A DNA stretch of 64,000 bases, taken from the NCBI GenBank assembly GCA_947034885.2, contig OX344750.2, positions 42,518,821-42,582,820 of the forward strand, in the 5' to 3' direction. The DNA comes from Thuidium tamariscinum. Its lineage: Eukaryota; Streptophyta; Bryopsida; Hypnales; Thuidiaceae. Under the pieces are notes generated by a model. That model did no database searches, was not told the DNA's origin, and saw nothing but the letters and a program-made list of their open reading frames with translations. The translations under genes and the position numbers were made by a program. Shown here piece by piece: positions 1,135 to 62,000 of this stretch (positions are counted from its first letter, which is position 1; each line of letters opens with the position of its first letter).

Positions 1135-3387
1135 CCGTTACTCCGTATGGATCTCCCTGCTTCGTGATTTCTGATCAATTATCAGAACACAGCTTGCCGG
1201 TTTAGTTTTTTTATTTGGGTCTTCTATGCTATTGAGTTTATCGATATCCGATCGAGCAGACAGTGGAAAGTTTATCAGAGTACTCTTGAGCTGCTATTGC
1301 TTTTTGTAAATGGATGTGCGGGATGAAGATTTGATGATAATCACACTTTTAAAATGACATGACCATTTTAAGGAATATTTCTCTTGCAATTAAGGTTTGT
1401 AAGGTTTGTGTACCTATTGTGTACGCTTTGCTCATATTTAGATTGATGGGTTTCACAATTTTTTTCTCTTGCAGTAGAATGGAAAATTTGATATTGGGAT
1501 GTTCACTTTGGTCAACTCATTCTTAGTGATGAAGCACACATTATAAGTGATCAAAGTGAAAACATCTAATAGCTTTACGTAGTTGTGCCTTGAAGAACCT
1601 AGAGGGGACTATTCTTGTCCATTTGGATTTTATTGAGATACTTTGATTATCCTATATTGTTATAATGGTAATTCAAAAGTGTTCATTCAATGATGAACAT
1701 GTGTCTAAATTGCATGGAGTATGTACTTCAAATTAAAAAAAATAAAGACTATTTGTCCCAATTCCACCCCTTTCACATCCAATTTGATCCCTTGTATTGT
1801 TTAAACTAGGAGAATGGCAAAGAAGGTGCAATTGGATTTCAATAGTATGATTTGAATAAGAGGGAGGAATTTTGGGCATGAAAACTTGACTTCCATGATC
1901 AAAATTGCCCAAGATAGTTACAATTGAATCAAAAAGTGTCAAAGAGACTTAAATATTGATTGTATTAGATATATATGATTATAATTTATAAGTATATAGC
2001 AAGTTAGTGTTGACATCTAAGAATTATTGTAGGATTTGGAATTTATTGATATAGTATATCTTAAACCAAATAATGCAATTTAAAGTGTGTTGAAATGTTC
2101 TATCAATCATGAAGAAGATCTAATAAAATTAAATTATGTTTAATCTCCTTGAAGCCCCCTTATTCTGTCAAGAGATAATTAGACTTACGTTAATTTTTAT
2201 TTTATTTTCAATTAGTACTTAGGAGCAATATTTATGGCATAATAAGCCAAAAGCAAGGTTGGTACACAATACAAAAAAATTCTAATAGCCAAAACCATTT
2301 TTTTTTAATCCTAAAATACCATATTTGTCTACATATATAGCTTTGATTCATTTTATTTAAATTGATGATGAAAAAGTTATGAATAATCTTGTTTTTCAAA
2401 TAATCTAAGTATCATTTTAGAAAAAACTCTTTGTCCAACTTTGAATGCTAATATCTTCAAATTGAAATAGTCAAATTTGATGAAATCTTCAATACATGAT
2501 TTTACACAAGTGAAGTATATTAAGCTCCTATGGTTAAATTTTGAAAACTTATATATTTTCATTTCTTTGTTCAATTCAATAGATGTAGCAATTTTAGGTG
2601 GTATTTGACAAAAAATGACTTTGGTCCTTTTGAGGCAATAGCACTAAACATACTCAATTGTTATTGGTAACAATGATAGGTGTGCAAATTTTTTATTGTT
2701 GTAAGGTATTAGAGAGCATTGAGCTAAAGTTGTCTTGTTTGGATGTGCTTAAGTGTGTAGGGACTATGATTGGCAATGAAATTTTTTAACTAAGGTAGAA
2801 CCTCCTATAACCATTCGGTACCTTATAGCCAACTTATTGATGGGCGTATTTCTAATCAAGGCTGGAATGTTTTTTTTTCTCATTTTTAAAGTTGGGACTA
2901 CAAGTTCATGACACATGTCCAAAAGTAGTGTGCAAGAAAGTAGAAAAGAATGAGTAAAAAAGTAGTTTTTTGTATGATCAAAATAAGAAGACTCCACAAA
3001 TTGGTATTTGGTCTAGCACACTTTTTGCCTTCCAAAATTCATAGTAAATTTAATCCATGTGATAAAATTATCAATTTTTTGCAATTCCCATCATTTTTAT
3101 CTTTGCACCTTTGAAAATATTTGTTTTGGGTTGCACTACACTAGAGCATGCCTAGAATACCTTACATGATCAATTACGGGTGGTTCTATCTTAAAGATAA
3201 AACAACATGAATTTAGTTATTTACAACATTTCCAATAAATATTTTCTCCTAAAATTCAAATATTTGTAGTATTTTAATACAAACATTTGTAGTATTATTT
3301 TATATATCGACATTTGTCAATTAATATCCATTGTTGCTAAAAAAAAATTATATTTTATTACAAATATGTTATAATTTTATTTAATTA
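1135..3387. other. AT-rich intergenic stretch with no recognised gene
   Basis: Downstream of the PRMT4 stop. The first few hundred bases are the likely 3' UTR and terminator region. The rest is AT-rich with only short spurious reading frames. I see no terminal repeats or coding signal in it. Confidence 0.6.
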
Positions 3388-3842
3388 CTAGCGGTTGGTG
3401 CTTGCTATGCTATGCAATCATCGTTAGAATTTAGGAAATTGACATCATGAAAGCTCAAATCTCACAAAAGCACTAAATCATTGAAGCGTAAAAAAGCATT
3501 AAGCCAAGAAAACCAATGGATTTGCTACCTCTATTATATCTTCTTGTGGATCTTCTTTAATATCACCTTCATTGCAACAACTACATTATTTTTATAATAT
3601 CACTCTTTGTAAAAAGTGATATTACAAAAGTGATTGCAAATTACTACTCTTTTTCTGTAATATCACATTGTGTGACAATAAGATTTTCATATATTCATGA
3701 TTGAAAAAATTCTTATAAAATACTTAATATAATTATTTTAAGGACTTATTGAAATCAATAGCATGCATTCTATTCAAATATATCAAAATTTTATTAATAT
3801 GTGATACAGTGAATGCATAGTATACCAAGCACCAGCCCCTAG
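3388..3842. mobile_element. MITE-like element, copy 1 (CTAGCGGTTGG family)
   Basis: About 455 bp with imperfect inverted ends: left CTAGCGGTTGGTGCTTGC, right GCAAGCACC...CTAG after TGCATAG. A near-identical copy lies at 8329-8782. No coding capacity. Identity between the two copies continues about 56 bases past the right inverted end (to about 3898), so the mobile or duplicated unit may be longer than the inverted-repeat interval. Confidence 0.7.
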
Positions 3843-4763
3843 TATTAATGGTAGCGTTTGTGACATTAGAGAGGGAGTTATGATTTTAGTAGTATGATAA
3901 TATACAGAATGTTTTAAAAAAATACTAGCTTCAAAGTCATTTGACTTTCTTAGGTGAAACTGTAGTTGTTGGGCCTTATTGACCAATTGTAAATAATTTG
4001 TGGGTTGAAATTTGAGTTGTCATTAAATAAGGCAATTTTTTTCAATTTATATTTAACATCAAATTATTTTTCTCAACCCAAAATTTTAAGATAAATGCAT
4101 TTGTTTGCAAATATTTTTATATAAATTTTCTCTAAGGTTTATATTTTCTTAGATTTTGCTCTACACTTACTTATATATACAACCATCTACAAATAATTTA
4201 CAAAAATGAACATGATTAAGATCTAAAAGTATCATAGTCATGTATAAGGAAGTTAATTTTTCAAAAGACTAGACTACTTTCTTGTACATCTACAATCTTA
4301 TTGACTTTGGTGTAGATGTAGGATTTTCTACAATAGACACTTTACTAACACTATGATTTTGAAAGGCATTAGATTGAATTTTTTGTTTTCATTGTGAAAA
4401 ATATATTAGTAAACAAGACTATATAAATTTTCACAAAAGTAATGTGGATTTGGGTCATTTGACTATATTAAATAAGTTAAATGACATCATTGAACCAATG
4501 GGCTTTCTTAAAGGCAAATAAATTTTTTTGATTACAAATATTGATAAGGTGAACTATAAAAATTGGATTGCAATTTAATCTAGTTTGTATTCTATTAATA
4601 ATTTTAGAAAGATGAAAAATTATGGTTTTAGTAGCACTTAATCCCCAAAGAATTGGACTAGGGTTGCTTAGTTTGTCATTGTTTTTTTTAATTTGGCCCT
4701 ATGATTGTTTTACATTAGACATTAGAAGAGATTTAGGTGTTCAATAAGGCTACAAGTTCTTAG

Positions 4764-8183: not shown

Positions 8184-9020
8184 CATTAAAAGAGATTTGA
8201 AGCCATTACAAGACTGCAAGTTCCCAAATTGTGGAAATTCTAAGAATAGTGCTTTATCAACAGTTTGACGTGGTTGCAACTCTACCATGTCAAATATTAA
8301 TTAAATCAATTATTATTTTTGAAAATTGCTAGCGGTTGGTGCTTGCTATGGTATGCAATCATCGTTAGAATTTAGGAAGTTGACATCATGAAAGCTCAAA
8401 TCTCACAAAAGCACTAAATCATTGAAGCGCAAAAAAGCATTAAGCCAAGAAAACCAATGGATTTGCTACCTCTATTATATCTTCTTGTGGATCCTCTTTA
8501 ATATCACCTTCATTGCAACAACTACATTATTTTTATAATATCACTCTTTGTAAAAAGTGATATTACAAAAGTGATTGCAAATTACTACTCCTTTCTGTAA
8601 TATCACATTGTGTGACAATAAGATTTTCATATATTCATGATTGAAAACATTCTTATAAAATACTTATAATAATTATTTTAATGAATTATTGAAATTAATA
8701 TCATGCATTCTATTCAAATATATAATTTTTTTATTAGTATGTGATACAGTGAATGCATAGCATACCAAGCACCAGCCCCTAGTATTAATGGTAGCGTTTG
8801 TGACATTAGAGAGGGAGTTATGATTTTAGTAGTATGATTAATATTATTATTATTTCAATTTTTCAATATTTTTTGAAAATTTTTGAAAAAAAATTAACTA
8901 ATTTTTTTAAAAATTCAAAAAACTAGGCTATGAGAGTTGATTTGTAGTTCTTGGATAGTGTGGGGAATTGCAAAGGGAACAACCTCCAAATGACCCTTTC
9001 TTGACCTTGAATCCCCAGAT
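8184..9020. mobile_element. Degenerate CATTAGAAGAAATTTGAGG-family element split by a later insertion
   Basis: Left end CATTAAAAGAGATTTGAAGCC near 8184 and a right part (AACAACCTCCAAATGACCC, near 8980-9000) that resembles the AACAACCCCAAAACGGCCC block of the 47091-47375 copy. The CTAGCGG element copy 2 lies inside it. Boundaries are approximate. Confidence 0.45.
8329..8782. mobile_element. MITE-like element, copy 2 (CTAGCGGTTGG family)
   Basis: Near-identical to 3388-3842, same orientation about 4.9 kb away, with the same inverted ends. Shared sequence continues to about 8838. Low divergence from copy 1 implies recent duplication compared with the other repeats here. Confidence 0.7.
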
Positions 9021-22321: not shown

Positions 22322-23101
22322 AATTCCACATGGTCTAGCAAAACCTATTTCTATGAATCATGAATTGTAGTTCGTTATGCAAGGGGGATTGTGAGGTGCA
22401 TTATTATTGTAGTTTTAGCTGCATCCGACTATGTACCATATAATCTGTTTGATAAGCACCGTCTCCCCTGGAGTTGCAGCCTTGTGTCCCAGTCCATGGT
22501 TTCCGAACGTTGAATACATGAGCTCCCAATTCTTTTTATATTCCATGCACTGGCTTCTGACCCTCAAATATTGCAGTTGCAATGGGCTATCAGATCGTAT
22601 TCCACAGGAAAGCAGGATCGTTTTCACAGCCATATGCTGCATCCAGATTTTCTTTTTCTTGAAGACTGCATGTACTTCCATATCGTCCACGTACTTGGCC
22701 ATGATGCTTGAAGGATTTTAGTTACGTGAAGCCAGGTTGTTTTTTGGTTTTGGAACCAATAGTTATGTGGCCTTCCTTTCAAGAAGGTTTTCAAGTTGTT
22801 TCACTCCTTAAATTAGGGGGCTTCAATTGAAGGAGGCTGATTGTGAGTAAACAATTTGAATATGCAATTTTTGTATGCAATTTTTTCATGTATTGATTTT
22901 GCGTGAATGCGTGATGGATAAAATGAGGTTTTGGAAGTATTTTGGCAACATTGTAGAGGGCCACAATTATAGTTTAGCATTTTCTAACACATTTAACCTC
23001 ATTTTTTTGTAAGTTTGAAGCTAGCTATTTTTGTTTTGGGGAGGAAATTGGATATTTAATTGCCTAAAAAAACCCTTGTATGAAACTTACTTTGAGTTGT
23101 A
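22322..23101. other. Phytocyanin 3' flank
   Basis: Likely 3' UTR and terminator region, then AT-rich DNA. A weakly similar minus-strand partner of the intron 1 frame lies near 22415-22702. No gene recognised. Confidence 0.45.
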
Positions 23102-24205: not shown

Positions 24206-24349
24206 ATTTAGCCCTGAGTTAAATCCACCCTAAATTTGTTTAGTTACAAAATTAAAAGAAATTGATAAGTCTTATCAAAACTTGGGCCTGTACACAGTTT
24301 TGAGTAAGCTCCAAGAAGCTCAAAATAGGCTCTAGGCATTTAGGGTTAA

Positions 24350-24687
24350 CCCTTAAATGACGTGGGCGCCGTTTTTTGGTTGATGAAGGACTCCAAAACA
24401 AGCTACAAAATGGAAAAACAAAGCTTTTCATCCAATTTTTTTCCAGTATCAAACCTAAGATTGTGTGCCATGATGTAATGCAGAGATTAGCTTGCATTAA
24501 TGTACTCATAACTTTATAGAAGATTAGATTCTCTGTGCATGCCACGAAGGTTCCATTACCTAGCTCAAAATTTGAGTCGCTGGCTAAATTCTAGCCAAAA
24601 TAGTGACTTTCGCCTTTAGTCTTTGCGAAACTGGTCTCTGTTCACAGCTCGCTGTTCCTCCTTGGTGACCCGCCCGTCGTTTAGGGG
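24350..24687. mobile_element. TTAA-flanked, piggyBac-like non-autonomous element
   Basis: TTAA at 24346-24349 and 24688-24691 flank a 338-bp element with ends CCCTTAAATGACG and CGTCGTTTAGGGG (inverted, imperfect). The paralogous repeat has a single TTAA at 32756-32759 and no element, which shows the TTAA was duplicated on insertion. TTAA duplication with CCC-starting ends is the hallmark of piggyBac superfamily elements. No transposase inside. Confidence 0.8.
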
Positions 24688-24785
24688 TTAAAGATGAAGT
24701 GAAATCTCCGTTCTAGAATTGAAGTCATCGGGCGCATGCTGAAGTCAACACAGTTTCTCTCCTCGTTCGACTTCATTCAATTTAC

Positions 24786-25062
24786 TAAGGTGGGTACACC
24801 CAAAAGCGCCCTGTTCCCAAAAGCGCCATCTACAATGCACATACATTTCCGAAATCAGTCATGTTCACAGACTGTAGATGGCGCTTTCAGAAACAGACTT
24901 TGACTGTTAATAACTTTTGCATACGGTATCCAAATCGTGCGTTCTTTGGTGCGTTGGAACATGCTTTCACTTGCCAACAAGACTACATAAAAATTTAAAC
25001 TCATTAATAGGAGGAACTAGGCTCAGTATGAGAAAGTGGCGCTTTTGGGTGTACCTACCTTA
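24786..25062. mobile_element. TA-flanked MITE (TAAGGTGGGTACACC family), copy 1
   Basis: Ends TAAGGTGGGTACACCCAAAA and GGGTGTACCTACCTTA are inverted. The paralogous site at 32641-32660 is empty and agrees with a TA target with one mismatch. 277 bp. A second copy is at 29633-29908. TA target and size fit Tc1/mariner-type MITEs. Confidence 0.8.
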
Positions 25063-32285: not shown

Positions 32286-33200
32286 TTTCATTTGTGGAAG
32301 AAAAGAAAAGAATCTAGAAAACTTTGTCGAGCACATTCGCCACAACTGTTTACAGAAGAAATCTCAGGACACAGATGCAATTGACCAGAGTTGGTCTTCA
32401 ATTTGTCCAACTTTGCAGGATTGTGTTCCGTTTTGTGAGTGGAAAGCAGTGCGTCTTCGACGACTGAAATTCTTCCGGCCTCGTGTGCTTGAGTTTCTGT
32501 GAAACGCAAGGGTCACTCAGACGCGTGACGAACCCGAAAAACCGGACTCGCTTTCAGCGGCGAGAGTCCCTGCGTAAACCGACTGAGTCGCATAAAATAA
32601 GTTTTTAGAGGCTGTAGGTCCTCAGAAAATTCCTTGCCATCAATGGATAAGTAAATTGAATGAAGTCAACGAGGAGAGAAACTGCGTGGCCTTCAACATG
32701 TGCACGATGACTTCGAGGACGGAGTTTCCAACACTGAGTCACTGACTCTTCATTTTTAACCCAAAATGCCTGGGGCGTCTTTTGAGCTTTGGGGAATTTG
32801 CTCTAAACAAAATGACCAAGTTTTGATAAGTACAGTGGAAACACCCAAAACCGTCCGAATAAGGAATTGGAGGCATCTTTTTCTAAAACTGATATTTTTC
32901 TAGTATTAGCGAGAGAAAATCATGAATATTCAAAAAAAAAAAAATTCGGAATCAGTATGTAATTTCTACAAATTTTCAAAGAGTTGGCTCCCTAAACCAC
33001 TGGAACCGTCCTATAGGTGTACCCTCAACTGAACTCTACTGAAATCAGTTGTCAGTGAATGAAAATTATACATGTGTCTTACAGCTGCGTCAGCAAATTA
33101 GAGTTAAACACTTGTCAGACACTTTAATGGATGCTCATGGACAGATTTAGTGACACTCTTGGGACCAAGAATAGGTACAGGGACGGAAATGGGTGTTTCT
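32286..33200 (-). repeat. Long dispersed repeat, most complete copy
   Basis: Its left part (32286-32845) matches 24259-25505 and its right part (32830-33200) matches 9775-10523, both in reverse complement. It lacks the three MITEs present in the other copies, so it keeps three empty target sites. Short open frames only. Confidence 0.7.
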
Positions 33201-33726: not shown

Positions 33727-34484
33727 TTATAACTAGTTGTTGACCTTACCATCATTGTGAATAGGACAATGCCACCTTAGCGTTGAAAAGTCAACAACCG
33801 ATTATGAGAGCCCACTAGGTGATTGAAGCTGCATACACGTGTCTAGTTAGTAGTGATGAGAACAAATGAATAGGTTGGATCCTCATATTCTTTAGAATGG
33901 TAAAATATGATATAAGAATTTGATATCATTACCAAGGCCCAAAGTGAAACTTCAAACACATTTACACTAGTCTTAGTTTTAAGAGCTCAATGCACTTCAA
34001 TATCAAGAGATTGAAAGTTTGTGACATTCTATTTTTAAGTATAATTATGATAAGACCTTACATTCATATTTAATGAAATTGGCATATTTTCAAAGTGCAT
34101 AATTTATGACATTTAAATGTACAAAGCCTTGGAAAATAGGGCTAGAATATATTAATCTTAGGTTTCAATGGGATCATGCAAAAAGTGCAACCTATTGAGA
34201 TTCTACCATTTAACCCCTCAAGGCCTAAGGCCAATTTAGGTTTAAAAACATTCTTCCTTTTCAAGCCTTATAAATGTACATGTCACTAAGGTATGAAAAT
34301 CTTAACCATGCAATTAATCTTGTAGTGTGCATGTTGTAAATGATGTGAATCAAATTTGGAGTTATTTGGCTACATGAATTGCAAGATTATAATGTTTTCA
34401 TGTTGAAAAAAGATGTTAAAATTTTCCTAAAAACACATTTCGAGGTGAAATTTGATTTTTAATCTTATCCAAATGAAAAGGCTT

Positions 34485-34711
34485 ATGGTCAATTTCGTTA
34501 AAATGGCGGTATTCCGAGTGCCATTTTGACAAATTCCAGTGCCACTTTGACATATTCCATGTGCCACTTTGACAAATTTCAAGTGTCATTTTGACATATT
34601 TTGTGTACCATTTTGACATAGAGGCTTAGTGGTAGAGGAAGAAAATGTGCCATTTTAACGGAATGTTGTGCCATTTTATTGGAGTATCACCATTTTAACA
34701 AAATTGACCAT
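34485..34711. mobile_element. MITE, TTTCGTTAAAATGGCG family, copy 4
   Basis: Ends ATGGTCAATTTCGTTAAAAT and ATTTTAACAAAATTGACCAT. The related element in P450 intron 2 lacks this block. The interior is a tandem array (34520-34620). Confidence 0.8.
34520..34620 (-). repeat. Tandem array of about 21-base units inside MITE copy 4
   Basis: Five units of the form TGCCATTTTGACAAATTCC. The unit looks like an amplified sub-terminal piece of the host MITE (ATGCCATTTT). Confidence 0.8.
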
Positions 34712-35210
34712 GCTTTTAAATAAGAAGGGCTTTTAAATCAACATACAAACACATTGGTGAAAAAAAATTTCATTCAATTGACTCATTGAATTAGCAAAAT
34801 GACTTTGAAGTAGCAAAAAATAGCACAAAAGGATGAAAAAACACATTAATGATTGTACCTTCTACTAAAATGCTTCTCTATCACTCATAACTTCTTGGAT
34901 TGATGTAAAATTTTAGACACACAAACTAGAATAGATTGCACAACTTTTCCAAAAAGAATTATTAGAAATAGACACCGTATTAGGAAAAAACAAGCCACCA
35001 AAGTTCATTGTAATTCAAAAATGTATGGTATTGGACTTTGAATTGCTCCCAAACATTCAAAATAACTTGGATTGCTATGAAAATTCGACCAAAATAATTC
35101 GACTTCTAGAGAAATATAATTCAACAAATTTTATTGAAAACAAGCATTGGATGAAGGAAATACAAGCCCTCAAAGTTGCAAACATCAACTGCAATTTGGT
35201 GAACTCAAAT

Positions 35211-35250
35211 TGAACTTGTGAACTTTGACTTGTGAACTTGTGAACTTTGA
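35211..35250 (+). repeat. Short direct repeat TGAACTTGTGAACTTTGACT
   Basis: Two copies of a roughly 20-base unit, each itself made of TGTGAACTT steps, within the TTAA element. Confidence 0.75.
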
Positions 35251-35507
35251 TTGGTTCCCAAGATATTTGTACATCTTAGATTCATCTGAAAATTTTACCA
35301 CACAAACTAGGATGTTATGCCCAAGTTTTCCAACAAGTTTTATTGAATTTGGACATTGGTTGCAAAAGTTATTACACTTTGAATTGGATTGCTAGCTATA
35401 TGAGGCAACTTTTGAGCCCTTTGGGCGTTGAGGGGTTAACAAAGATGGAGATTACAATTGGATAAACAATTATAGGCAATGTATACTACGTTGAATAGGA
35501 GTTTTAA

Positions 35508-36443
35508 TCCCTAAAGGACCAAACTACTTTTTTTTGGCAACATTGATAGCAATTTTGGGTAGCTCACTACAGATGGGATCTTTTTAGTTGTTGTTTTTTG
35601 CACTTTTCACACAACATGTGCCCCATGAATAACTTCAAGGCCCAACAATTTTTGACTACATGGTTCAAAAGTTATTGTATGATATATATGACTTTTATTG
35701 CTTGACAGGTAATTTGGGCAGTTCAAAAAAATTTCTTCAATGATCACTTTTTTTTAAAATAAAAATTTGAAATTATTATTTTTTATTTATATATACATGG
35801 AAAGTTTTGAATCATTTCATTTTGGTTAATGAAATGAAAGTTATAGGAGTTTTAGTTTGCAAGTAGTTTGGGGGAAGTTATAGAATGTCTAATCTAAAAT
35901 AAACTTTGAAGTCCTTTATTTAATTCAATTCTTAATATTTTTGAAAAGAAATAAAAACATTGGGTATAGATCATTTAATACAACATTGCAACCATTGGAT
36001 TGGCATTTTTCAATTCAATAAATAAATTGTTAGCAATTTAGTATTTTTGAATTGTTCTCTAGTCCTTCCTATTTACTATTCTTTTTGTATATGTTGTACA
36101 ATTCTAAATGATTTGAAAATTTTCTAGTATGTAATCAACTCGAATTGAAGAATGAATCCAAATGATAACAACCCCATTTTGGACATTTTTTCATGTAAAT
36201 GTGTCTTGAAGTGCAACTACTCAGATTTTCAAAGTGATAAAAGTAAGGATTTTTGTAACTTCAAACAACAATATCTTGCAATCTAAATTACATGACCAAA
36301 AAATTTGAAATTTTTACTACACCTTCTCAAACTAGTTCACTAAGAAATTCCAATGGTTACATTACACCAAAAATGTTTATTTTTAAAAATTTGGTAATTG
36401 TCCTAAAAATGACAATTTTAGAATAGTTAAAAACTTATGAGGG
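35508..36443 (-). mobile_element. Probable TTAA-flanked element, shortened
   Basis: TTAA at 35504-35507 followed by TCCCTAAAGGACC, and TTAA at 36444-36447 preceded by GAGGG. The interior is reverse-complement similar to 42585-44414 (CATTGCAACCATTGG against CCAATGGTTGCAATG). The right end is weak. Confidence 0.5.
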
Positions 36444-39800: not shown

Positions 39801-41364
39801 ACGCCCCAATTCCCATACCAGAGCTCGAGGGCGAGACTCTCAGACTGCCATTGATATTGACCTCTTCACCAAACCGCAATTTTTGCACATGGACGAAGCA
39901 GTCTCGAATGTCCTGTGCACTGTAACGCAGGCAATCCCATGGAGGTGATCAAGACGCGACCAGATTTTAGTTGAAGGCAAACTTAAAAGCTAATAGCAAA
40001 CGAAACTACTTGATTTCTGCAATGCGACCTTCGACTTCCAATAGAGAAAGAGTTGTGAACCTGTACAGCGGCAGCCAGTTTGCCCTATTTGAGAAACATC
40101 GACCGAGTAACGAACCCCTCACATGCACTGGCAAAGTGCAAAGAAACGAGGGGTCTAACCAAGGTGGTTTCTGCCCACCAGTTTCTAGCCTTCCACGGTG
40201 TTGAATAAAGTCAGCGTGCAGAAACACTAACTCCTCCATCATCAGTCTACCAATCTCAGCAGTTGCTTTAGTGGCATAGACCTGCACAAATAATGGTATT
40301 AGACATGAAGTAAAATGGTGTCTATAGAAAACGCTACCTGGTTCGATAGTATCACACACGGGACCTGATCCCACGTCCTATACTTATTACCAAAAAATCT
40401 CATCCCATTCATACACCTGGTTGGACAAATTAGCAAGAGGCGTGAACATGACTTGACTGCCTGTCTACGGCCACCTGATCTTTGAGGAGACGGAGTAATC
40501 TACTCTCACTTAAATGACTCTACAACCTCCGACTTTGAAATCGCATAAGAAATTCATGCATAATGACAAAAATTTGATCAAAACCGCTTTGGCTTCCGCA
40601 CCAAAGATCTCTTCAGAGCTCTGAACATCTCTCAAGAATCACACTCCTACACGAGTTCAAACGCTAGAAATGACGCAAATAATATCCTTCACCCTAATAT
40701 CTCCTCTCTAAGCTTATAAAGCCACATACAATCAACAAGAAGTTGAAGTCAAATCCTTGCCTTGCCACAGAAATCAGGGTGCTTCGTTAAGAAGGGAAGG
40801 CCAAGCATGCCAGCGGGATTTGAAATGATAACAGCATCCAATAGTCCCACATCCACAAGCTCCATTCCAGAAACTTTGTACCATGGCTCTCCCTTCACTA
40901 GAACCTGTCCATTCAGTTCTTTGAAGAGTGAACTCATATCCTTCCAATCTCTACCCTTCCCATCCTCTTCATGGTTCAGACGAATCCTCGCAGATGGCCT
41001 CAGCAGTGCATTCTGATTTCCCTTCCTCTTGCGTACAGCTATGAAGCTCCGGACACTGGCAGACTGTTCTTCGGGAAGTGGTGCGGGGTGAAAGAGAGCT
41101 AACGCGGAAAGGTCGATGGGACACTCGAGTAGAACACAGGACTCGTCAAAATCCAGCAGGTGGCATGCAGGACCAGATTCCTCCTGGCCAGGGTCCTTCC
41201 CACACCCCAGGGACGTCTGCAATTTGCAAAACAATTGAAGAAGTGAAAACCTGCTGAAAACCCTAAACCCTAAACCCTAAAATCCTAGAACCCCGAGGTA
41301 TCCACCAAATTTCTTCAAGAAGAAAAAAAGAATATTAAACCATAAGAATGCTTACCAGCTTCAT
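36883..41364 (-). CDS. INTS9: Integrator complex subunit 9 (beta-CASP family, non-catalytic)
   Basis: Ten minus-strand exons: 41364-41356, 41216-40761, 40281-40010, 39919-39227, 39099-39003, 38802-38711, 38527-38407, 38184-38099, 37709-37658, 37413-36883. They total 2409 nt (802 aa plus stop) with all phases consistent. The protein starts MKL, split by intron 1, as in INTS9 relatives. Metallo-beta-lactamase and beta-CASP parts follow (ECPIDLSALALF, VYATKATAEIGRLMMEELV, GASNWIIS, EPCVVFAAHFSLRMG). The position of the zinc-binding HxHxDH reads NPAGML (136-141), so it is a pseudo-nuclease that partners catalytic INTS11. Integrator cleaves snRNA and other nascent transcripts in the nucleus. Residues about 332-422 are a Ser/Pro/Gly-rich insert that makes the protein longer than animal INTS9. 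Intron 2 uses a GC donor (AAG|GCAAGG). Confidence 0.93.
41257..41286 (-). promoter_or_regulatory. Telo-box cluster in INTS9 intron 1
   Basis: Three tandem CCCTAAA units (TTTAGGG on the gene strand) directly inside intron 1. In plants, such interstitial telomere motifs near the transcription start are common in genes for translation and growth. Confidence 0.6.
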
Positions 41365-41878
41365 GACTGACACCGGACACAGTATCACCTTAATCTCTTG
41401 GAATTATCGGCAGTCGCTCCAATCCCAACATGCTGCGACCACAATGCGAGGGCCTTCAGTCAGATTGCAATGCACTAAACGATTCTCAATCGAGTTAGGG
41501 CAAAATTCGTCGTGGCATGCAAGCGAAGAATGGTGATCCCAAGCGAATAAAACGAATCCGTACTTGACAAGCTGGGAATCTAGAACCCTAATTTGAGTCA
41601 GAAGGTCGGATCTAAAACCTCTCGAACACCCCTCTCAATCTAGACAATTCAATCAAAAATTCCCAAAAGAGCAATGGCCAGCATTAGAGCTCAATTATGC
41701 AAAGCGACCTGCAAAACATGCAGAAGCGCTACATAGCCAATTGCAGCTGGAGAGATTGGAAATTGCCAAGTGTGGTCCGTGCGAATATCATTTCCAGAGC
41801 CATCAAATGACAAATAAGCAATTTCGACGATGACGACCAAGCCTCAGCTGCAAGCCAGAACCCTTCTTGAACTCTTAA
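41365..41878. other. INTS9 promoter and 5' flank
   Basis: About 510 bases between the INTS9 start codon and the first TTAA element. Moderately GC-rich. No other gene seen. Confidence 0.5.
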
Positions 41879-42580
41879 CCCTTAAAGGACGGACCTCTCA
41901 ATTTGTTACCGTTCTCAAACCAGTCATGTATGAAAAATTTTATTTTTATTTTTCAAAGATGAAAGTACATGTCTTCTATAACTTACTTCACAGAAATTTC
42001 AGATTTTTTTTTGAGGAAAATTGATTTTTATGACAGTTTTTGAAAAAAAAGTGAAGAAAAAATCATATCAAATAGAAAAGAATCTCAAAAAATCTGAAAA
42101 TTTCACCATGTGTGTACATTACAGTGACAAACATTATGGGGTAAACTCAACTTCTATGTACACTTATTTCTAAGCTGCAATGGATATTAAAAATGTAGCC
42201 AAAATTCAAATTGTAATAAAACATTCGATCTAACGAATTTTTCCAAAATTCCAATTGGAGTAGAAACTAGAAGTGAGGACCTTCATTTTTGTTAGATGGG
42301 CTCAAATTCAGAATATGTCATTTTCAAGGAGAAAGTTCAAATTTACTCAATTTCTCAAAATACACTAAAACAACAAATTCTACCATCCGTTTTCTGTAAT
42401 TACTTCTCAACCACATGGAAACAAACATCAGTTAGACGAAAAACTTAATTGGACACTCTTCGTAATTCAACATGCAAGGGCATTAAAAAAAATATAGATG
42501 AAAAAACTACTATTTAGCTCTTCTTCTAGCCCCCTAAAGTCATCCAAATGCCAAAAAATGGCGTTGGCGTCACTTAGGGG
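41879..42580. mobile_element. TTAA-flanked, piggyBac-like element A
   Basis: TTAA 41875-41878 and 42581-42584. Ends CCCTTAAAGGACG and GCGTCACTTAGGGG are inverted and imperfect. 702 bp. It directly abuts element B and shares the TTAA between them. Confidence 0.75.
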
Positions 42581-42584
42581 TTAA

Positions 42585-44414
42585 CCCTTGAAGGATAGAC
42601 CAGTGGCCGTGGAAATCATGCATTTTGATACCGTGTGATATCACCTACTTTGAAAAAGCTAAATGTACACATTGGAAGTCAAAATATTGTAGAAGATCTT
42701 CCTTTTTCACCTCAATACTAGGGATGAAAAGTTGCATTTCAGGCCAAGAAGGAAAGATTCTTTGTCATTCAAAGGACGCCAAACATCCACAGCAACGTTC
42801 AAGTGTTATTGACTTTCACCTCCATCGAAGGAGGGCCCCAAAAGTGACTGAATGGTAAATAACTTTTTTTCCATACTAGATGTTTTGACTATGTTTCACA
42901 AGATGATTTTACATATATAATCATGACATGAAATTTTGTTTTACAATGCACTATTCTAGACTAGCATATATACAAATGGAGTGATATACAAAAAGAATTA
43001 AAATGCATTTATATGTCATATAAATTTCTCTCATTTTTCTTCAAGAACTCTCAAGAATTTTAAGCTTCCAAAAGAATAGATTTTTGATAAGAAATAGGAA
43101 ACATGTATTTATATATTTATATATAATCAATAATGGAGCACATAAAGTTAAAGATTTAGAAATTTGACTACGTTGTAATAAGTCATTTTTGAAGGGGATT
43201 TTCAATTTTCTTAAAGATTGTATAGAATACTTTAGCACTTTTGAATTTCTTTTTCTTTGACCTCTAAATGCACAAAGTCAATTTTGAGCTTTCTTGACTA
43301 AGCAAAAACCAATATTTTTAAAAGTTACATTAGTTCATAAAATTGTAATTATACAATCTTAAATTAGACGTACTACGGATCACTTAGGAAAAGAAAACAC
43401 AATAATATCATAATAGATCTTCAATGGATATAATTATAATTAGGGTATTCCGAAAAGTTTTTTCCATTACAATTTGATATAAGTCCAAATTTTTAACTCC
43501 TTAAATTCCTTGACTATGTTTATTCCCAAAACAGTCAAAAATTGCCATATCTAGTACCAATAACAAATTTCTTTTAAATTTCTTTTAAATTTCTTTTTGA
43601 GATTTATAATAATAGGATCTTGTAGTGAATTGGTTTGAAAATGTGTAGAAATTTTTTTAGAATTTTTCACTATATAAATTGCAAGATATTAGCATTTGAA
43701 TTGATAAAAATCATTTTTTTATCCTTACAAATCCCTTGTGCACTTCAAAAGGTCACAATTTTCAAAAATGGTGGTTACTCTTTGAGTTCATTTTTCAATT
43801 CAAATTTACTAAATGCTCAAAAAAATTCAATTCATTTGGAGTTGTACGGCATATAGGAAAAAATTAGTAAGTAGAAAAGAGTAGCACATGATTCAAAATA
43901 CAAAATTCTTAAATACTACTTTAAGGAATTGAAAAATGCCAATTCCAATGGTTGCAATGTTTTTATAAATAATTTTCATCCTATTATTTTATTTTATTTT
44001 TTAAAATATTGAAAATTGAGTAAAATAAAGGACTTCAAAGTTTATCTTAGAGTAGAAAACCCATGAGTGCTCACAAACAAAAACTCCTCATAACTTTTGA
44101 TTCATTGATCAAAATGAAATGATTCAAAGCTTTCTATACAAAAATAAACAAAGAAAACTAATTTCAAATTCATGTTTTTGAAAAAAGTGATTTTTTCCAA
44201 TCTACTCAAATTGCCTATGCACAAAAGAAGCAATATATTAGGCTATTACTTTTTACTCATATTTCCAAATATCTTCATTTTTAGTGCTTGTGAAAGATAT
44301 TCCTTGCCCCTATATTCTATTAAAATTTGGGCCAAAAATATAAAAATCTCCATTCATACATACTTGCCTAAAATTGCTATGCATAGCAAATTTAGTAAAC
44401 TAATCCTTTAGGGG
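42585..44414. mobile_element. TTAA-flanked, piggyBac-like element B
   Basis: TTAA 42581-42584 and 44415-44418. Ends CCCTTGAAGGATAG and CTAATCCTTTAGGGG are inverted. 1830 bp. No transposase-length frame. The interior is related to 44900-47090 and to 35508-36443. Confidence 0.75.
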
Positions 44415-44973
44415 TTAATGTACTAAGGTATGACTTCACCAAATGTGGTTGTAGTAATCTACGTTTATAATGTAATTAAAAAAAATTATCACAACCAAAT
44501 ATTTCAAAGAATTTTTAATACATTTTTTAGTTGAAAAGCAAGTTATATCTTATTTATCAAAAATTCTCAAAAACTAGCATTTAGAATATCAAATAATTTG
44601 ATTTTCATATATAATATATGATATTGTATATGTATTTTGTATTCATACAATATCCATATCCATATCTTGAATTTGTATTTGGAAGGCTCAAATTAAATCT
44701 CACAAAGATCAACAACATGTGATTTTTTGAGAAATCTACAACATTTTGGAAGGGAAGCATTTAAAAAAAATTCAATGGCCTCTAATTTTTGAGATTAAGG
44801 GGGAACTACTGTAGTGGCAAACCAAAAGGCGGTGCCATCTTTTCAATGCATAGGCATAGTCAAATGAAGTTAATCAATAGAAGTAAAAACTTCAAATTCA
44901 AACCATCAAACTAATATCTAGCCCTTGAATGTATTTGACTATGTTTTGCCAAAACTGCTCCAAAACTACCATT

Positions 44974-45126: not shown

Positions 45127-45446
45127 TTTCTAGTACAAGACCCAAATCTTAAAAAACAACAATTTAAGATAGATGTAACTATAGGATCTTATAGTACACT
45201 AGTTTGAGAATATATGGAAAAAATTTCAGAAATTTCCACCATGTACGTAGCAAGATAATAGTGTTTAAATTGTCAAAAATCCAATTTTTGTTCTTGCAAA
45301 AATTTGGACAATTGCACTTCAGTGGCTCACTTTTGTATGAAAAAAAGTCCAAAATGGTTGTTACTCTTTGGATTCATTCTTCTAGTCACGTTGGCTACAT
45401 GCTTAAGAAATTTCAAATCATTTGGAGTTACTTAAAGCCTTTTGTC

Positions 45447-46503
45447 ACAACCTAATTTTTTCTTTTTCTTTTAGCCATAACTTTTGTGTTTTAGCTCCAA
45501 ATGACTCAAAATTAATAGGGAAGCTACTCATGGATATTATGTATCTAAAATGAATTTTTTAGATTTTTCAAAAATAATTTATTATTTTTAAATAGCCCCG
45601 AAAATTTCTCATAATACTTGATTTAACGGTTCTTAGCACCCCATTTCTCCAAAAAAACGAATTTTGACCTAAAATTTGGAGAGCATGGTCTCCTAGTATA
45701 CGTATACCTATTGTCTAAAGGAATTCTAAAAATACTTATTTTTAAGTGTTGTAGAAGTCCACAAAGAGAGCTTCATTCTGCATTGTTTTCCAAAGGTATA
45801 AAACATTATTTTGGTGATTTTTTTTAGTTAAATCTCATCACCAAAAAGTTTTTTCAAGTTTTGTAATTTTATGTATTTTTCAAAAAAATAATAATATTTT
45901 AAACAAATTAAAATGTCACAAGTTGCATTGTTTTCACCGGAATTCTATGAGAATTCTATGTCCAAAGTTTCGGTGAAGAAAATACAACTTGTGACATTTT
46001 AATTTGTTAAAAATAGTATTATTATTTTTTTAAATACTTAAAATTACAAAACTTGAAAAAACTTTTTGGTGATGAGATTTAACCAAAAAAATCACCAAAA
46101 TAATGTTTTATACCTTTAGAAAAAATGTAGAATGAAGCTCTCTTTGTGGACTTCTAAAACACTTAAAAATAAGTATTTTTAGAATTCCTTTGGACAGTAG
46201 GTATAAGTATACTAGGAGACCATTCCCTCCAAATTTTAGGTCAAAATTCGTTTTTTTGGAGAAACGGGGTGCTAAAAACCCTTAAATCAAGTACTGTGAG
46301 AATTTTTTGGGGCTATTTAAAAATAATAAATTATTTTTGAAAAATCTCCAAAATTCATTTTAGATATATAATAGCTATGAGTAACTTCCCTATAAGTATT
46401 AGGTAATTTGGAGCTAAAACACAAAAGTTATGGCTAAAAGAAAAAGAAAAAAATAGGGTGTAACGAAACGCAACAAATAGTACAAGTGTTTCTTGCATTC
46501 ACC
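45447..46503. mobile_element. 1-kb fold-back element: two roughly 500-bp arms, near-perfect inverted repeat
   Basis: The left arm (about 45447-45940) and right arm (about 45968-46462) are reverse complements with few mismatches. They meet at a short centre around GAATTCTATGAGAATTC (45940-45957). The right arm ends in the GTGAATGCAAG-family terminus (ACAAGTGTTTCTTGCATTCA, near 46483-46501); the left arm lacks it. The arm interior matches the 16451-17183 element. Confidence 0.85.
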
Positions 46504-56055: not shown

Positions 56056-59000
56056 ATGGCGAGGCTGGTGGAAGTATGGACAGCCGTGACTGTGGTGGTG
56101 GCGACAGTGCTTGTCTACAAAGTTTTGAAATTGCTGTGGATTGGAGTTTGGGAGCCGCTGCGCTTGCGTCGTGTGATGGCGCGGCAAGGAGTGAAAGCAG
56201 CGCCGTTTCGATTCCTTGTCGGAAATCTCATCGACATGGGCAAATATGTGAAGTCGTTGCCCGAAGCTCTGCCGCTGGACAGTTACACCGATTTCTCGCC
56301 CACTGTCACGCCGCAATATACTTTGTTCTGTCCCAAATACGGTATGGATGCAAGTTTCTCTTATGCTATGGTATTTGCACCCGTAGAAACATCAAAATGA
56401 GATTAAGAAAGGCTTCATTTGCCTTCACTTTTCTTGGGTCTGTTTGGCAAGTGAATGAAGGTTCAAATGCATCTGAGCACGATGTTTCTGGAACTGGATG
56501 AATGAACTGTGAATGTTCAAAGGATTGATTGTTTTAGGGTAGTGATCAGTCGCTTTTGGGTAAGGATTCCAGTTTCTCGTCCACTATCGTCCGTCAGTTT
56601 GCCTTGGATTGTCCCCAACACGGTGTGCCGGTTTCTCATACGCTATGGTTTGTTCCCTTAAAAACATTGAATTGAGCTTGAGACTGCCTTCATTCTTCTT
56701 GAGTCGTTTGGGCAATTGAAAGAGGGTTCGAATGCATCTCAGCAAGTAGATTTGGAACATCGGATGAAGAAACTATGAATCTTCGAAGTACTAATTGTAG
56801 GTCTCCTAGAAATGAACTGCAGATTTTCATTTTCAATCCATATTCTGCTTTTGAGCAATTTTATTGCTTCAATTTCAGGGAGCATCTATTGCTAAGATGC
56901 TTGAACCGACTAACTCGCAATTAAAACCGCGGCGGTTCTCCCCGTAAGTTACAATGCTTTGTGTCGAAGACAATGCCAAAGCTTCTGACACTTCATTTGT
57001 GCAGGGAAGAATTTTGTTTATGAATGGGCTACCTTCACGCGAATTGTTGTGCGAGACCCGGAGATTGCGAAAGAAATTTTTGTGAACAATCACAAATTCT
57101 TGAAGAGGTTCTTCCTCGAAGACATGATCGTCAAGCAAGTGTTGGGCACAGGATTGGGTAGTCTGTTTGGAGAGAAATGGGCTACCGAGAGACGGACCCT
57201 CGCTCCCTTCTTTCATCAGGACACACTCAAGGTAGAACTTGCTACACCCTAAACCCATTACTGACTGGCCCCTTAACCTCTAACCCCTAAATGCTCAAGG
57301 CCTTTTTGGATTTAGAAACATCATTGCTTCTGGAGTGTTATAGGGCTAATTTTCACTTAAATATGGAAATCTGAACTCTACAATCTTGTAGTGTACGTAT
57401 TGAAGATGAAGTGAATCAAATTTAAAGTCATTTGACCACTTTGATTGCAAGATTATAATGTTTTGGAATTGAAATGAATGCTGAAATTTTCCTAGCAATA
57501 TATTTGGAGGTGAAATTTGACTTTTAAACCTACTCAAATGAAAAAAAATTTAAATGTAAAGTGCTTAAAAGCCACCATAGAAAGACAATGGTGAAAAAAA
57601 TATCATTTGATTGGCTCATTGTGTCTACAAAATGGATTTGAAATGTCAAAAAATAGTTGCAAAAAATACATCGATGATTAATCCTCCTTTTACTAAAATG
57701 CTTCTCACTCACTCTTAACTTCTTCGATTGATATGAACTTTTAAACACACAAACTAGACTAGTGTGTGCAACTTTTTCCAAAAAACAGATATTGAATGAA
57801 AAAGAAATAAGCCATTAGAGTTCACTTTAATCCAAAAATGTCTAGATTTCAAACTTTGAATTGATCTCAAACATTCTTTCTTGATGTGAAAATCTTATGA
57901 CAATAACACTACAAAAAAAAACATTGTCCAAAACAACATGAAAATGAATTGATATATGTTGATTATGTTTATTGATTTACTTTGTTAGGACATATTGATT
58001 TGGACAAATAATCAACACAATTGTCTTAATTGTCAATCAAGATTTGATCAAATTGTTAATATTCAAAAATTTAGATTTATAGACCACCACATAGGTTGAA
58101 CCACCACATAAATGAGATCATAAATTTAAATTTAAAAACTTAATTGTAATTCATTTTTACAAAACTTAGCATTATTTTCGAAGTAGTTCCATGGATAGAG
58201 AACATATGACCTATGAATGTTACATGGGTTGGTGCAAGTGAGGAGAGATGATAATCTTTTTATACATGTGGGATGGTAGGAGGTAGAACAAAACATATGG
58301 GATACATAAATGAAGATGAGTAGGAGCTCAACCACTCATAGTTAAGTCATAACTAGCAAATTATGTTAAAAGTAGAATTTCAGGCCTCATTTAGGTATAG
58401 TAGAACAAATTTTTTCAAATAAATTTAACTAAGAAAAGGTGGAAAATCACACCAAGTTTTGTCTCCACAAATTTTTTTGACATTTCAAGTCTCCAATCAA
58501 GAGTTATAAACAAATTTTAGAGAGAAAGTTTTAAATTGTCAAAAGAATTGTCCTTTCTAATCCATCTTTGAAATTTGTCTATAACATTTGATTGAAGGCT
58601 TGAAATGTCAAATAGTTTTTTGAAGATGAAACTTGATTTGATTTCCCACCTAGTCCCAGTTCAAATTTTTTTGAAAAAAGTTATTCTAGGATGCCTAAAT
58701 GAGGTCTTAAATTCTACTGAGACTATGTTTGATAGATTGTTGGATCAACACCCGAAATTCCAATTTTTTCACAATCAATACAAATCACTTCATCTTGTGT
58801 TGATTAGGGCCCCTTTTTCTTGTAAGTATAACTACACTTAAGGGAAACACAACCCAACAAATATGATTGAAAATGAACATTGGATGAAGAAGGTATAAAC
58901 TTCCAAAGTTGCAACCAACAAAATGCAATTTGGTGAACTCAAAGTGAACCCACGAACTTCAAATGGTTTTAAAAAATCAATGCATCTTTGATTGATCTAA

Positions 59001-62000
59001 AAATTTTACTACACAATCTAGAAGAGAGAACACAAATTTACCAATAAGTTTATTGAATTCTGACATTGGATGCAAAGTAATAGTGCTTCAAATTGGAATT
59101 ACACACTATGAAAACACTTTTGATTTCCTAGGACATTTAGAGGCTTAAGGACCAAGATGCTCAATTTTGGTCTCATCAGTTTTTCAAGTTTCTTTGACTA
59201 GATCATTATTTTGTGAATTTCTGTTGAGTTCAATTTGGGGTTTTTTTTTGACTAGTATGTGTAATGGACTTCACTAATTCTAATGACATAAAATAAAACC
59301 TCAATCAAAATATATTTTTCATAACATCATCAATTGAAATGTCTTTGTTCAAATCTAAAATCCTACATTCTTTTGAAAAAATCAATTCATTGATTCATTT
59401 CTCAAAACCATTGATGTAGTGTTGTTGATTTTTTGCATTTGTGATACATGCACATGAGTTTTTTCATATTGGTTAAATTTTGCTTTGGTGCATATTTTAT
59501 AAATATTGTTGTAATAAGAAATATTCTCAATAAATGATGTGAATGGAAAATTGTAACTTTGTGATGTTTCATTTTTGGAAATTTATAACTAGCTCATTTT
59601 AGGGTCAAAAATGATGTTTCAACTTGTATTGAGTTACATCTCTTCTTTCCTAACTTTTAAAAATGAATAAGAGCATGTGAATTTTTCATATGCACTCTAA
59701 ATTAAGATGGTTATGAGCCAACTATTTTTAGTCAAATGACACTAGTTTGTGAGCCTAAAAGCATGAGCCTTGTGAGCCTAAAGCATTAACAAAAAAACTT
59801 TGAATTTGTTAGGCCAAAAGAGAGAAAAGCAAAGTCATTGCTAAAAATTCTATTTATAGTAAAATTTCAGCCCTATGACTATGGACCTATGATTGTAGAA
59901 GTGTGGTTAACATATTTTAAAATTTCAAACCCTACTATCTCCAAAAGGCCTCTCAATACCTTCCAAAAAATAACTTTGAAATTTTGAATTTTTTTTGGTG
60001 ATTCCATCACACCCCAATTCATCTCTTGGTATTGAGAGAAGGTGTGAAGGGTGACAAAGTTGCAAAAAAAGTGAACTAATGACATAGTCACAAAAAATGA
60101 AAAAAAAATTGAAAAAATGAAAATAAAAGTTTTGAGACCTCTAAGCCCCTATACCTCCGTGGGAATTTTTGATATTGAGAGCCACGGGTCTTGGAGGGTG
60201 ATGGTATTGCAAACAAAATAGACAAATAGAAAAAAAATTGAAAAAAAATTGAAATTAGAAAAAAAAAAAAGTTTTGGAAGTCACAAATTTCAAATCCCAC
60301 AAGGGAGTTACTAGCTATGAAAAATCCTAAACTCCTAAAGCATGGTAATAGGTCCATGTCCTAAAAATCACGAAAAATTAGAAGTTCATAGGCTCACATG
60401 CACACACTCTTAGGCTCACAAAATAGCACCCTCGCTTTTAGTCCAAGTAAGGACTTAAATCTTTACTTATACTATTGAAGAAGATGCAAATTAATTTCTA
60501 TATAATTTATCATGTAAATGAATAAATGGGCATAAATGATTATTTTTATAGTAACTATAGGGGTTGTCACAATTCATAGTTTTAACTAAGAATTTAGAAC
60601 TTATTTCTAAATTTAGTCTAGTACAATTTTGAGTTTTAAAGTGTGAAATTTCTTGAAGAAATTTGAACCACATTGTCCAAATCTCTTCTTCTTTGAATTC
60701 TCTTCAAGTAGCTTTTGGAAGTTTCTATAAGTAGCAACAGTAAATTCTCAAGTGAGATATCTATTTTTGATTTGGATGCAATCAAGTCAATTTGATAAGA
60801 TTAATCTATTGGTAATTTAAGATTCTCATTGGATATAGTGGTGTGGTCACTTGTAGGGCATGGTAGAGGCAATGGTAGAAGCAACGACAACAGGAATACA
60901 AAAGTGGGAAAAGATGGTCTCCGAAGGTGGTGGCTCAGCAGAAATTGATGTACAACATGACATGCATAAGATTTCAGTAAGAATCATATCGTTGACGGCA
61001 TTCGGTGGTGATTGTGACAAGGGAGAGAAAATCTATGAACTCCAAAAAGAGATTGCAAGCCAAGTTGCCAAAAATATGTTTAATCCATTGGCTTGGCTCA
61101 TTCCAAACTATAGGTAATTATGTTGATTGCAAAAGGTGACATTGTTTTGGACTAAGTAAGAGGAATCAAGAATTTTTTTGCATATCTTTTAAATTAGATT
61201 TGTAGAGAAGGAAATCTCGTAAGCGCAAGTAAGAAAGGTAAGAATGATGAGTTGTAATCATCTTGCTTGCAATTCTTCCGCATCAACTTACAAAATCATC
61301 CAATATGCAATCTAAGATAGAATCTCTCATAACCTAAAATATTCCACTAGCAATCATAATTTATAAGGTTGCCTTTTTTTTCAAACATAAACAAATTATA
61401 TCTATTTGTAAGTGAAATTCAAGAATGGCAATTGAATATCCTTTGCAATAGCTATGTGAAATCTAACTTCAATTAGTAGATCTTCAAAAGCTATGAAGCT
61501 TATTGCATCATTGATCCTTCATCATAACACTATAACCTTCCTAATTTTAAGGGTGAAGTTCCTTTGTATCTTTGCATTCCAGACTTCTTTCATTATTGAA
61601 ATTCAATGAAACTCGTTAAATTGAATGTTTCCAATTTCAAAATATTGTAGAAATGGCATTTAAGCCTTTATTTTCAAAAATATTATGCATTATACAATCT
61701 CATATTTTTACTATGGAGCAGGAAAATTCCAACAAAAGCAAACAAGCACATGGACAAGTATGACGCTAAGATTGATGCTCTCTTACATGAAGCTATGGAG
61801 GGACGAAAGAATGATGTACTTACAGGGAAAACAAGCTCTTACGGGGAGGATTTGCTTGGACGCATGTTGACCGCGGCAACAGATAGATGGGATGAGAAAA
61901 CACAAGAATTCAATATGGCATCCGTATTCAACAATTGCAAACCCTTCTACTTTGCAGGTGAAGACACTGTGGCAAGCACCATTGTGTTTTCTATGTTAAT

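Follow-up and report, generated by a model that had tools for sequence, protein, structure and literature searches.

A TTAA-bounded insertion and its empty counterpart

The window, by which we mean the whole analysed stretch of 64,000 nucleotides from contig OX344750.2 of the moss Thuidium tamariscinum, contains a P450 exon and a NOP58 exon (identified by PDB matches) together with several repeats, one of which carries an element that we term E1 (Table 1). The core of E1 is a 338-bp segment (CCCTTAAATGACG...CGTCGTTTAGGGG) located between two TTAA tetranucleotides. Its ends form an inverted repeat of 17 nt that is 88% identical when the TTAAs are counted, and the short terminal inverted repeat proper, 13 bp long, has 11 matching positions. 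In the inverted paralog of this repeat, the minus strand reads GGCATTTTGGG-TTAA-AAATGAAG, with a single TTAA in place of the element. When the flanks of E1 were joined by script, they formed one continuous alignment with the paralog with a score of 134. The unjoined sequence scored 95, and the flanks taken singly scored 59 (left) and 95 (right). Automatic alignment misplaced the insertion between the paralogs, and joined flanks were used instead. Left-end cuts placed 10–13 bases inside E1 scored 138 against the paralog. The paralog is old, with aligned pieces that are ∼75–89% identical (the left flank of E1 gave 85% over 34 bp in a BLAST search within the window). Because of this age and divergence, the paralog alignment alone leaves the join unfixed to the base, and the border of E1 is fixed because 21 genome copies share it.

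The coordinates and sequences of E1 and of the empty site were as given in the preliminary description of this DNA, and its proposal of an insertion at TTAA, based on the paralogous empty site, is borne out by the joined flanks and the 21 genome copies. The same description took the empty site to show duplication of TTAA. On its own the site cannot do so, since a lone empty site with TTAA fits a TA or TAA duplication equally well, and it is the other tests described below that separate these cases.

Table 1. Positions of E1, its empty counterpart and other TTAA-ended sequences in the window
Feature	Position	Strand	Remark
E1, probable non-autonomous piggyBac-type element (MITE)	24346..24691	+	346 bp with both TTAAs; genome copies
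E1 left TTAA target-site copy	24346..24349	.	sequence and copy alignment
E1 left terminal inverted repeat CCCTTAAATGACG	24350..24362	+	
E1 right terminal inverted repeat (CCCCTAAACGACG on - strand)	24675..24687	-	
E1 right TTAA target-site copy	24688..24691	.	sequence and copy alignment
Single TTAA of the empty site, inverted paralog	32756..32759	-	aligning flanks
Degenerate end-like sequence TTAA-CCCTAAATGCC (- strand), adjoining E1	24336..24349	-	weak
E2, 710 bp, TIR CCCTTAAAGGACG / CCCCTAAGTGACG	41875..42584	+	
E5, 1,838 bp, TIR CCCTTGAAGGATA / CCCCTAAAGGATT (10/13)	42581..44418	+	one TTAA in common with E2
E3, 1,230 bp, TIR CCCCTCAAGGCCT / CCCCTCAACGCCC	34210..35439	+	
E4, diverged copy of E3, 69–74% in blocks	57280..59147	+	homology borders
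Orphan end TTAA-TCCCTAAAGGACC	35504..35520	+	

Other TTAA-ended elements in the window

Where at least five further candidates had been announced, we found four two-ended elements (E2, E5, E3 and E4), the orphan end at 35504 and the degenerate end at 24349. The orphan end has no good partner, the best TTAA candidate within 5 kb matching at only 7 of 13 positions. The homology between E4 and E3 ends at identical borders, which read CTAA followed by CCCC on the left and, on the minus strand, TTAAG followed by CC on the right. The left ends of E1, E2 and E5 are CCCT and agree with the CC[C/T]T motif given for piggyBac termini (PMC2872659). Their right ends, CCCC, and the CCCCT at both ends of E3 depart from it, as do some ends of the autonomous elements described below. 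E1, E2, E5 and E3 follow the wider CC..GG rule for terminal nucleotides (PMC10045372), and the right end of E4 reads TTAAG before CC. No transposase match was obtained for E1–E5 with the 10 longest of their 80 frames of at least 30 aa, for which the sole hits were three to unrelated families, all below threshold. As is typical of a MITE, E1 is short (346 bp), lacks a transposase frame and occurs in multiple dispersed copies.

Several other repeats were observed in the window. A second MITE-like insert (GGTGGGTACACC...GGTGTACCTACC, 24790–25061) lies in the same repeat as E1 and is absent from the inverted paralog; its empty counterpart is near 32640–32660, and the duplication is perhaps TTA/TAA. 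Another MITE-like repeat (AATTTCGTTAAAATGGCGGTATTCC.., ∼34483–34713) is nested in E3 and missing from E4, with similar copies near 23100, 23985 and 33545. A long foldback at 45437–46471 has 352-nt arms that are 91% complementary and enclose 124-nt arms that are 90% complementary. Direct repeats at 3362–3898 and 8303–8838, ∼4,940 bp apart, are 95% identical; their size is compatible with a terminal-repeat retrotransposon, and clear ends were not recognised. A three-unit plant-type telomere-like repeat (AACCCTAAACCCTAAACCCTA) is located at 41259–41279.

Copies of E1 across the genome

The host assembly (363,211,507 bases in 19 contigs) was searched with E1, which gave at least 47 matches, at least 22 of them, E1 itself included, spanning position 1 to position 344 or beyond. 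E1 and 20 of the 21 other fuller-span copies were aligned with 50 bp of flanking sequence on each side. The mean pairwise identity of the 21 copies is 0.828. Within the element the mean majority fraction is 0.884, compared with 0.362 and 0.394 for the two flanks, and conservation drops at TTAA on both sides. The left end is TTAA in all 21 copies. On the right, 18 of the 21 copies have TTAA at the expected offset, and the remaining three are shifted by one base (L046) or read TTAG (L044) or TTAC (L047), so that only 2 of the 42 ends depart from TTAA. Boundaries other than TTAA in a genome-wide alignment, which the preliminary description had named as grounds for rejecting its assignment, thus do not prevail. 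The exact 17-mer comprising the end and TTAA occurs 259 times in the genome, and its backward control does not occur at all.

These copies bear on two other explanations of the locus. One is that no mobile element was involved and the paralog lost the segment between two TTAAs; at this locus just two paralogs, both old, were compared. However, 20 other copies with the same borders lie in unrelated flanks on several contigs, and the probability of such a loss is vanishingly small. Alternatively, E1 could be a Tc1/mariner (TA) or PIF/Harbinger (TAA/TTA) MITE with ends that begin with A or TA, which would give its flanks the appearance of TTAA. MITEs with these targets are common in plants, as stated in a part of a 2023 review (PMC10004981), and a single empty site fits TA or TAA equally. 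This origin is nevertheless highly improbable, as the outer T and A are kept in copies that were found without requiring them, and 21 of 21 left ends of the E1 copies are TTAA despite unrelated flanks.

It was also observed that some elements adjoin each other. E2 and E5 are arranged head-to-tail with one TTAA in common (window 41875–44418). By eye, four of the 21 aligned E1 copies (L039, L043, L049 and L053) have the left end of another element immediately after their right TTAA, and in L053 this adjoining left end resembles that of E5. The left flank of E1 itself is also end-like, and a sequence similar to this degenerate end is present in the empty-site paralog. Such strings may result from a preference for insertion next to resident ends, or just from the crowding of the genome.

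TTAA as the duplicated target

The window was scanned for pairs of ends with TTAA flanks, CC..GG termini, an inverted repeat of at least 10 of 13 positions and a span of up to 4 kb. Five pairs were found, whereas 300 dinucleotide shuffles gave an average of 0.07 each. Because one pair is a cross-pair that combines the left end of E2 with the right end of E5, the scan implies four elements, namely E1, E2, E5 and E3. When all 256 tetranucleotides were tried as the target duplication, TTAA gave five pairs, seven others gave one each and the rest gave none. The outer nucleotides were also assessed in pairs selected less strictly. Among 18 AACC..GGTT pairs, the five of the E type have TT outside on both sides, which is seen in none of the other 13. 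A flank-free selection of CCC..GGG pairs with an inverted repeat of at least 10 of 13 yielded 91, six of which have identical 4-bp flanks, and in five of these six the flank is TTAA.

An end model of 13 positions that ignores the TTAA positions was also used. Its top 10 hits in the window are preceded by TTAA nine times and by CTAA once, although most of the ends from which it was built had been selected for TTAA. In 86,796 bases flanking transposase copies elsewhere in the genome, it produced 18 hits of at least 13 bits. TTAA precedes 11 of them, four follow tetranucleotides that differ from it at one position (TCAA, ATAA, CTAA and TTAG), and the remaining three follow ATTA, ACGT and CTTC. 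The reversed control of the model on the same flanks gave three hits, none after TTAA. Duplication of a TTAA target, which is a hallmark of piggyBac elements, was thus found in the window, in the flanks elsewhere in the genome, in the E1 copies and in the copies of the autonomous family PB-A described below.

Autonomous piggyBac elements in the same genome

The preliminary description had proposed a search of the genome for a piggyBac transposase (DDE_Tnp_1_7) with the same ends, and piggyBac transposases in elements with similar ends are present. With the PF13843 (DDE_Tnp_1_7) profile, 116 genome matches were scored out of 659 first-look candidates (best E 5.7e-80); by our own count 74 of the 116 are free of internal stops and 42 contain at least one. 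None of 14 control genomes gave a PF13843 match. Eight autonomous families were sampled. All eight have paired ends with TTAA and CCC[CT], 10–15 of 15 positions matching, where the pair taken for each family is the best-scoring one around its transposase; both CCCT and CCCC ends occur among them. The elements span 5.0–7.9 kb, although the 7.9-kb span of L021 may include other insertions, and their longest ATG frames encode 415–1,180 aa, with three above 1,000 aa.

One family, PB-A, is represented by 11 dispersed copies (L009–L019) of a 5,096-bp block that are 99.96–100% identical to the L013 copy (L013:1782-6877). All 11 are bounded by TTAA, and their flanks differ. This near-identity suggests very recent movement, although one assembly cannot prove that it continues. 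The predicted PB-A transposase is a DDD protein in a 1,009-aa frame (PF13843 E 5.7e-79), and among solved structures the frame matches only piggyBat (9c0f, 3.2e-27) and Trichoplusia ni piggyBac (6x67, 1e-22). A structure prediction for the transposase core was set aside, as its mean pLDDT was 57. The start of the transposase frame is overlapped by a second open frame (L013:2455-3273, 273 aa), which gave no Pfam match and may encode an accessory protein or be due to chance.

Seven transposase families were aligned, the eighth (L020) being omitted because its frame is broken. Three Asp residues are invariant in all seven, and the alignment with piggyBat suggests that they are the catalytic ones. 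A Cys-rich C-terminal domain is also present, whose five Cys and single His are likewise unchanged throughout the seven. For six pairs of families, pN is 0.25–0.51 and pS is 0.77–0.86, so that per site the differences that alter an amino acid are much scarcer than silent ones; the silent differences are saturated, and only the lower pN values are informative.

The identity of these partners bears on two further TTAA-duplicating groups. Sola3 elements duplicate TTAA, and this property is all that speaks for a Sola3 origin of E1, which we regard as most improbable, as the partner transposases with such ends are of the piggyBac type. Kolobok, the other well-known TTAA-duplicating superfamily of DNA transposons, shares the target duplication and would be an equally remote source of a MITE such as E1: according to the part of PMC9587614 available to us, its termini are 5′-RR..YY-3′, in contrast to the CC..GG of the TTAA-flanked elements here, and its transposase differs from the partners in this genome, which match DDE_Tnp_1_7 and piggyBac structures. 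An autonomous partner from another superfamily had been named as grounds for rejecting the assignment; the autonomous elements with such ends are of the piggyBac type.

We also considered that the transposases could be contamination of the assembly by an animal, a fungus or another eukaryote. The part of a 2025 survey that we could consult places piggyBac chiefly in animals, fungi and protists (PMC12732532), which would favour such a source. Against it, PF13843 matches are present on each of contigs C1–C10, and the TTAA-ended repeats around the sampled transposase copies are those that also occur in the window. The assembly also holds a LEAFY gene (SAM_LFY E 1.6e-27), and LEAFY is a marker of land plants and related algae. 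Contamination is thus very unlikely. In the DNA-binding exon of this LEAFY gene the sequence is KPKMRDYVHC, and we take Asp at that place to be the moss type. Five further, weaker SAM_LFY matches were observed (L030–L034, on C9, C1, C8 and C2; E 6e-9 to 1.5e-4).

Similarity between the ends of the window elements and the autonomous families

In BLAST comparisons with the eight autonomous families, the matches of E1, E2 and E3 are confined to terminal stretches of 23–45 bp. The right 28 bp of E1, TTAA included, are 89% identical to the right 28 bp of PB-A (E 8e-5). For E2, the right 45 bp share 82% identity with the left 45 bp of L022 (E 3e-7) and also match the left ends of PB-A and L020. The last 23 bp of E3 match the last 23 bp of L027 with E 0.004, which is weak as measured against the reversed-query control, where one internal hit had E 0.006. 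The single hit of E5 is internal, and E4 has no BLAST match to the eight families. The interior and left end of E1 likewise match none of the eight, and no shared interiors were detectable by BLAST. By eye, the left end of E1 is closest to that of L024 (CCCTTAAATGAC), whereas its right end is closest to PB-A. The ends of E1 thus resemble different families, and sequence singles out no individual family as its probable mobiliser.

Discussion

We conclude that E1 belongs to the piggyBac superfamily as a non-autonomous element of the MITE type, with a probability of about 0.96. This agrees with the assignment made in the preliminary description and is supported by the TTAA borders, the CCC ends and the autonomous partners. 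In general, piggyBac transposase cuts at the TTAA borders of its element and re-inserts the element at another TTAA, restoring a single TTAA at the site that it leaves. In the mechanism that we propose, a piggyBac transposase encoded elsewhere in the genome would bind the short ends of E1 (TTAA-CCC[CT]TAAA...), excise the element and join it into a TTAA, which would thereby be duplicated. By analogy with known piggyBac systems, we infer that E1 would be mobilised by cut-and-paste by one of the piggyBac transposases of this genome and that this activity may extend to the present day.

The closest parallel is provided by the coral piggyBac MITEs (CMITEs), which, in the part of the report available to us, have TTAA, CC[C/T]T ends, inverted repeats of 12–19 bp and tandem arrays (PMC2872659). 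As with the elements described here, they combine TTAA duplication and short CCC.. inverted repeats with non-coding sequence, have autonomous piggyBac partners in the same genome and are occasionally arranged in tandem, and the ends of CMITE-III begin with CCCCTC.., like those of E3. The CMITEs, however, are ∼100 bp long and have a conserved interior, whereas E1 has 346 bp and an interior that matches none of the eight autonomous families. The autonomous elements resemble the animal piggyBacs (T. ni, 6x67; piggyBat, 9c0f) in their DDE_Tnp_1_7-type domain, three Asp residues, Cys-rich C-terminus, TTAA target and CCCT-type ends. They differ in host and in size from beetle piggyBacs, for which the consulted part of PMC12732532 gives 2.1–3.5 kb and 500–725 aa, compared with 5.0–7.9 kb in this plant. 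Beyond eukaryotes, the accessible part of PMC10045372 states that bacterial IS1380 has both 4-bp duplications and CC..GG ends in common with piggyBac.

The piggyBac superfamily is already in print for plants, and the statement in the preliminary description that standard catalogues of plant MITEs lack it was too strong. In the portions of the sources that we consulted, PiggyBac is listed among seven angiosperm MITE superfamilies in a 2023 review (PMC10004981) and among plant DNA transposon superfamilies in a 2024 review (PMC10794571), and a repeat table for the fern C-fern contains 1,230 PiggyBac pieces (PMC6890710). These entries share the label and the plant host with E1, but those portions give labels or counts only, without an autonomous partner, borders or an empty site. 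The 2025 survey, in its consulted part, describes plant occurrences as occasional and names red algae (PMC12732532). In our partial survey of the literature, which carries little weight as a negative, we found no description of an autonomous piggyBac in a moss or of a recently moved population in a land plant. Within the literature searched, it is therefore new that a plant, here a moss, harbours autonomous piggyBacs that are diverse and have moved recently.

More broadly, the sequences are consistent with a moss that hosts a large, still-mobile population of autonomous piggyBacs in several deeply diverged lineages, some with unusually long transposases of ∼1,000 aa, and that also contains the MITEs belonging to them. 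Some of these MITEs would insert preferentially into a TTAA next to a resident piggyBac end, thereby forming head-to-tail strings that share one TTAA. We hold this wider picture at even odds. PiggyBac is a leading gene-transfer tool. Its cited uses in plants rely on an animal-derived version, judging from reference titles in the consulted part of PMC12732532. Native and diverse plant piggyBacs, including the 11 near-identical copies of PB-A, offer transposases to test, and the genome that contains them is a natural setting for the question of how plants silence TTAA-specific elements. In summary, the results extend the piggyBac superfamily in plants by documenting element borders, a target site and transposases that are candidate partners.
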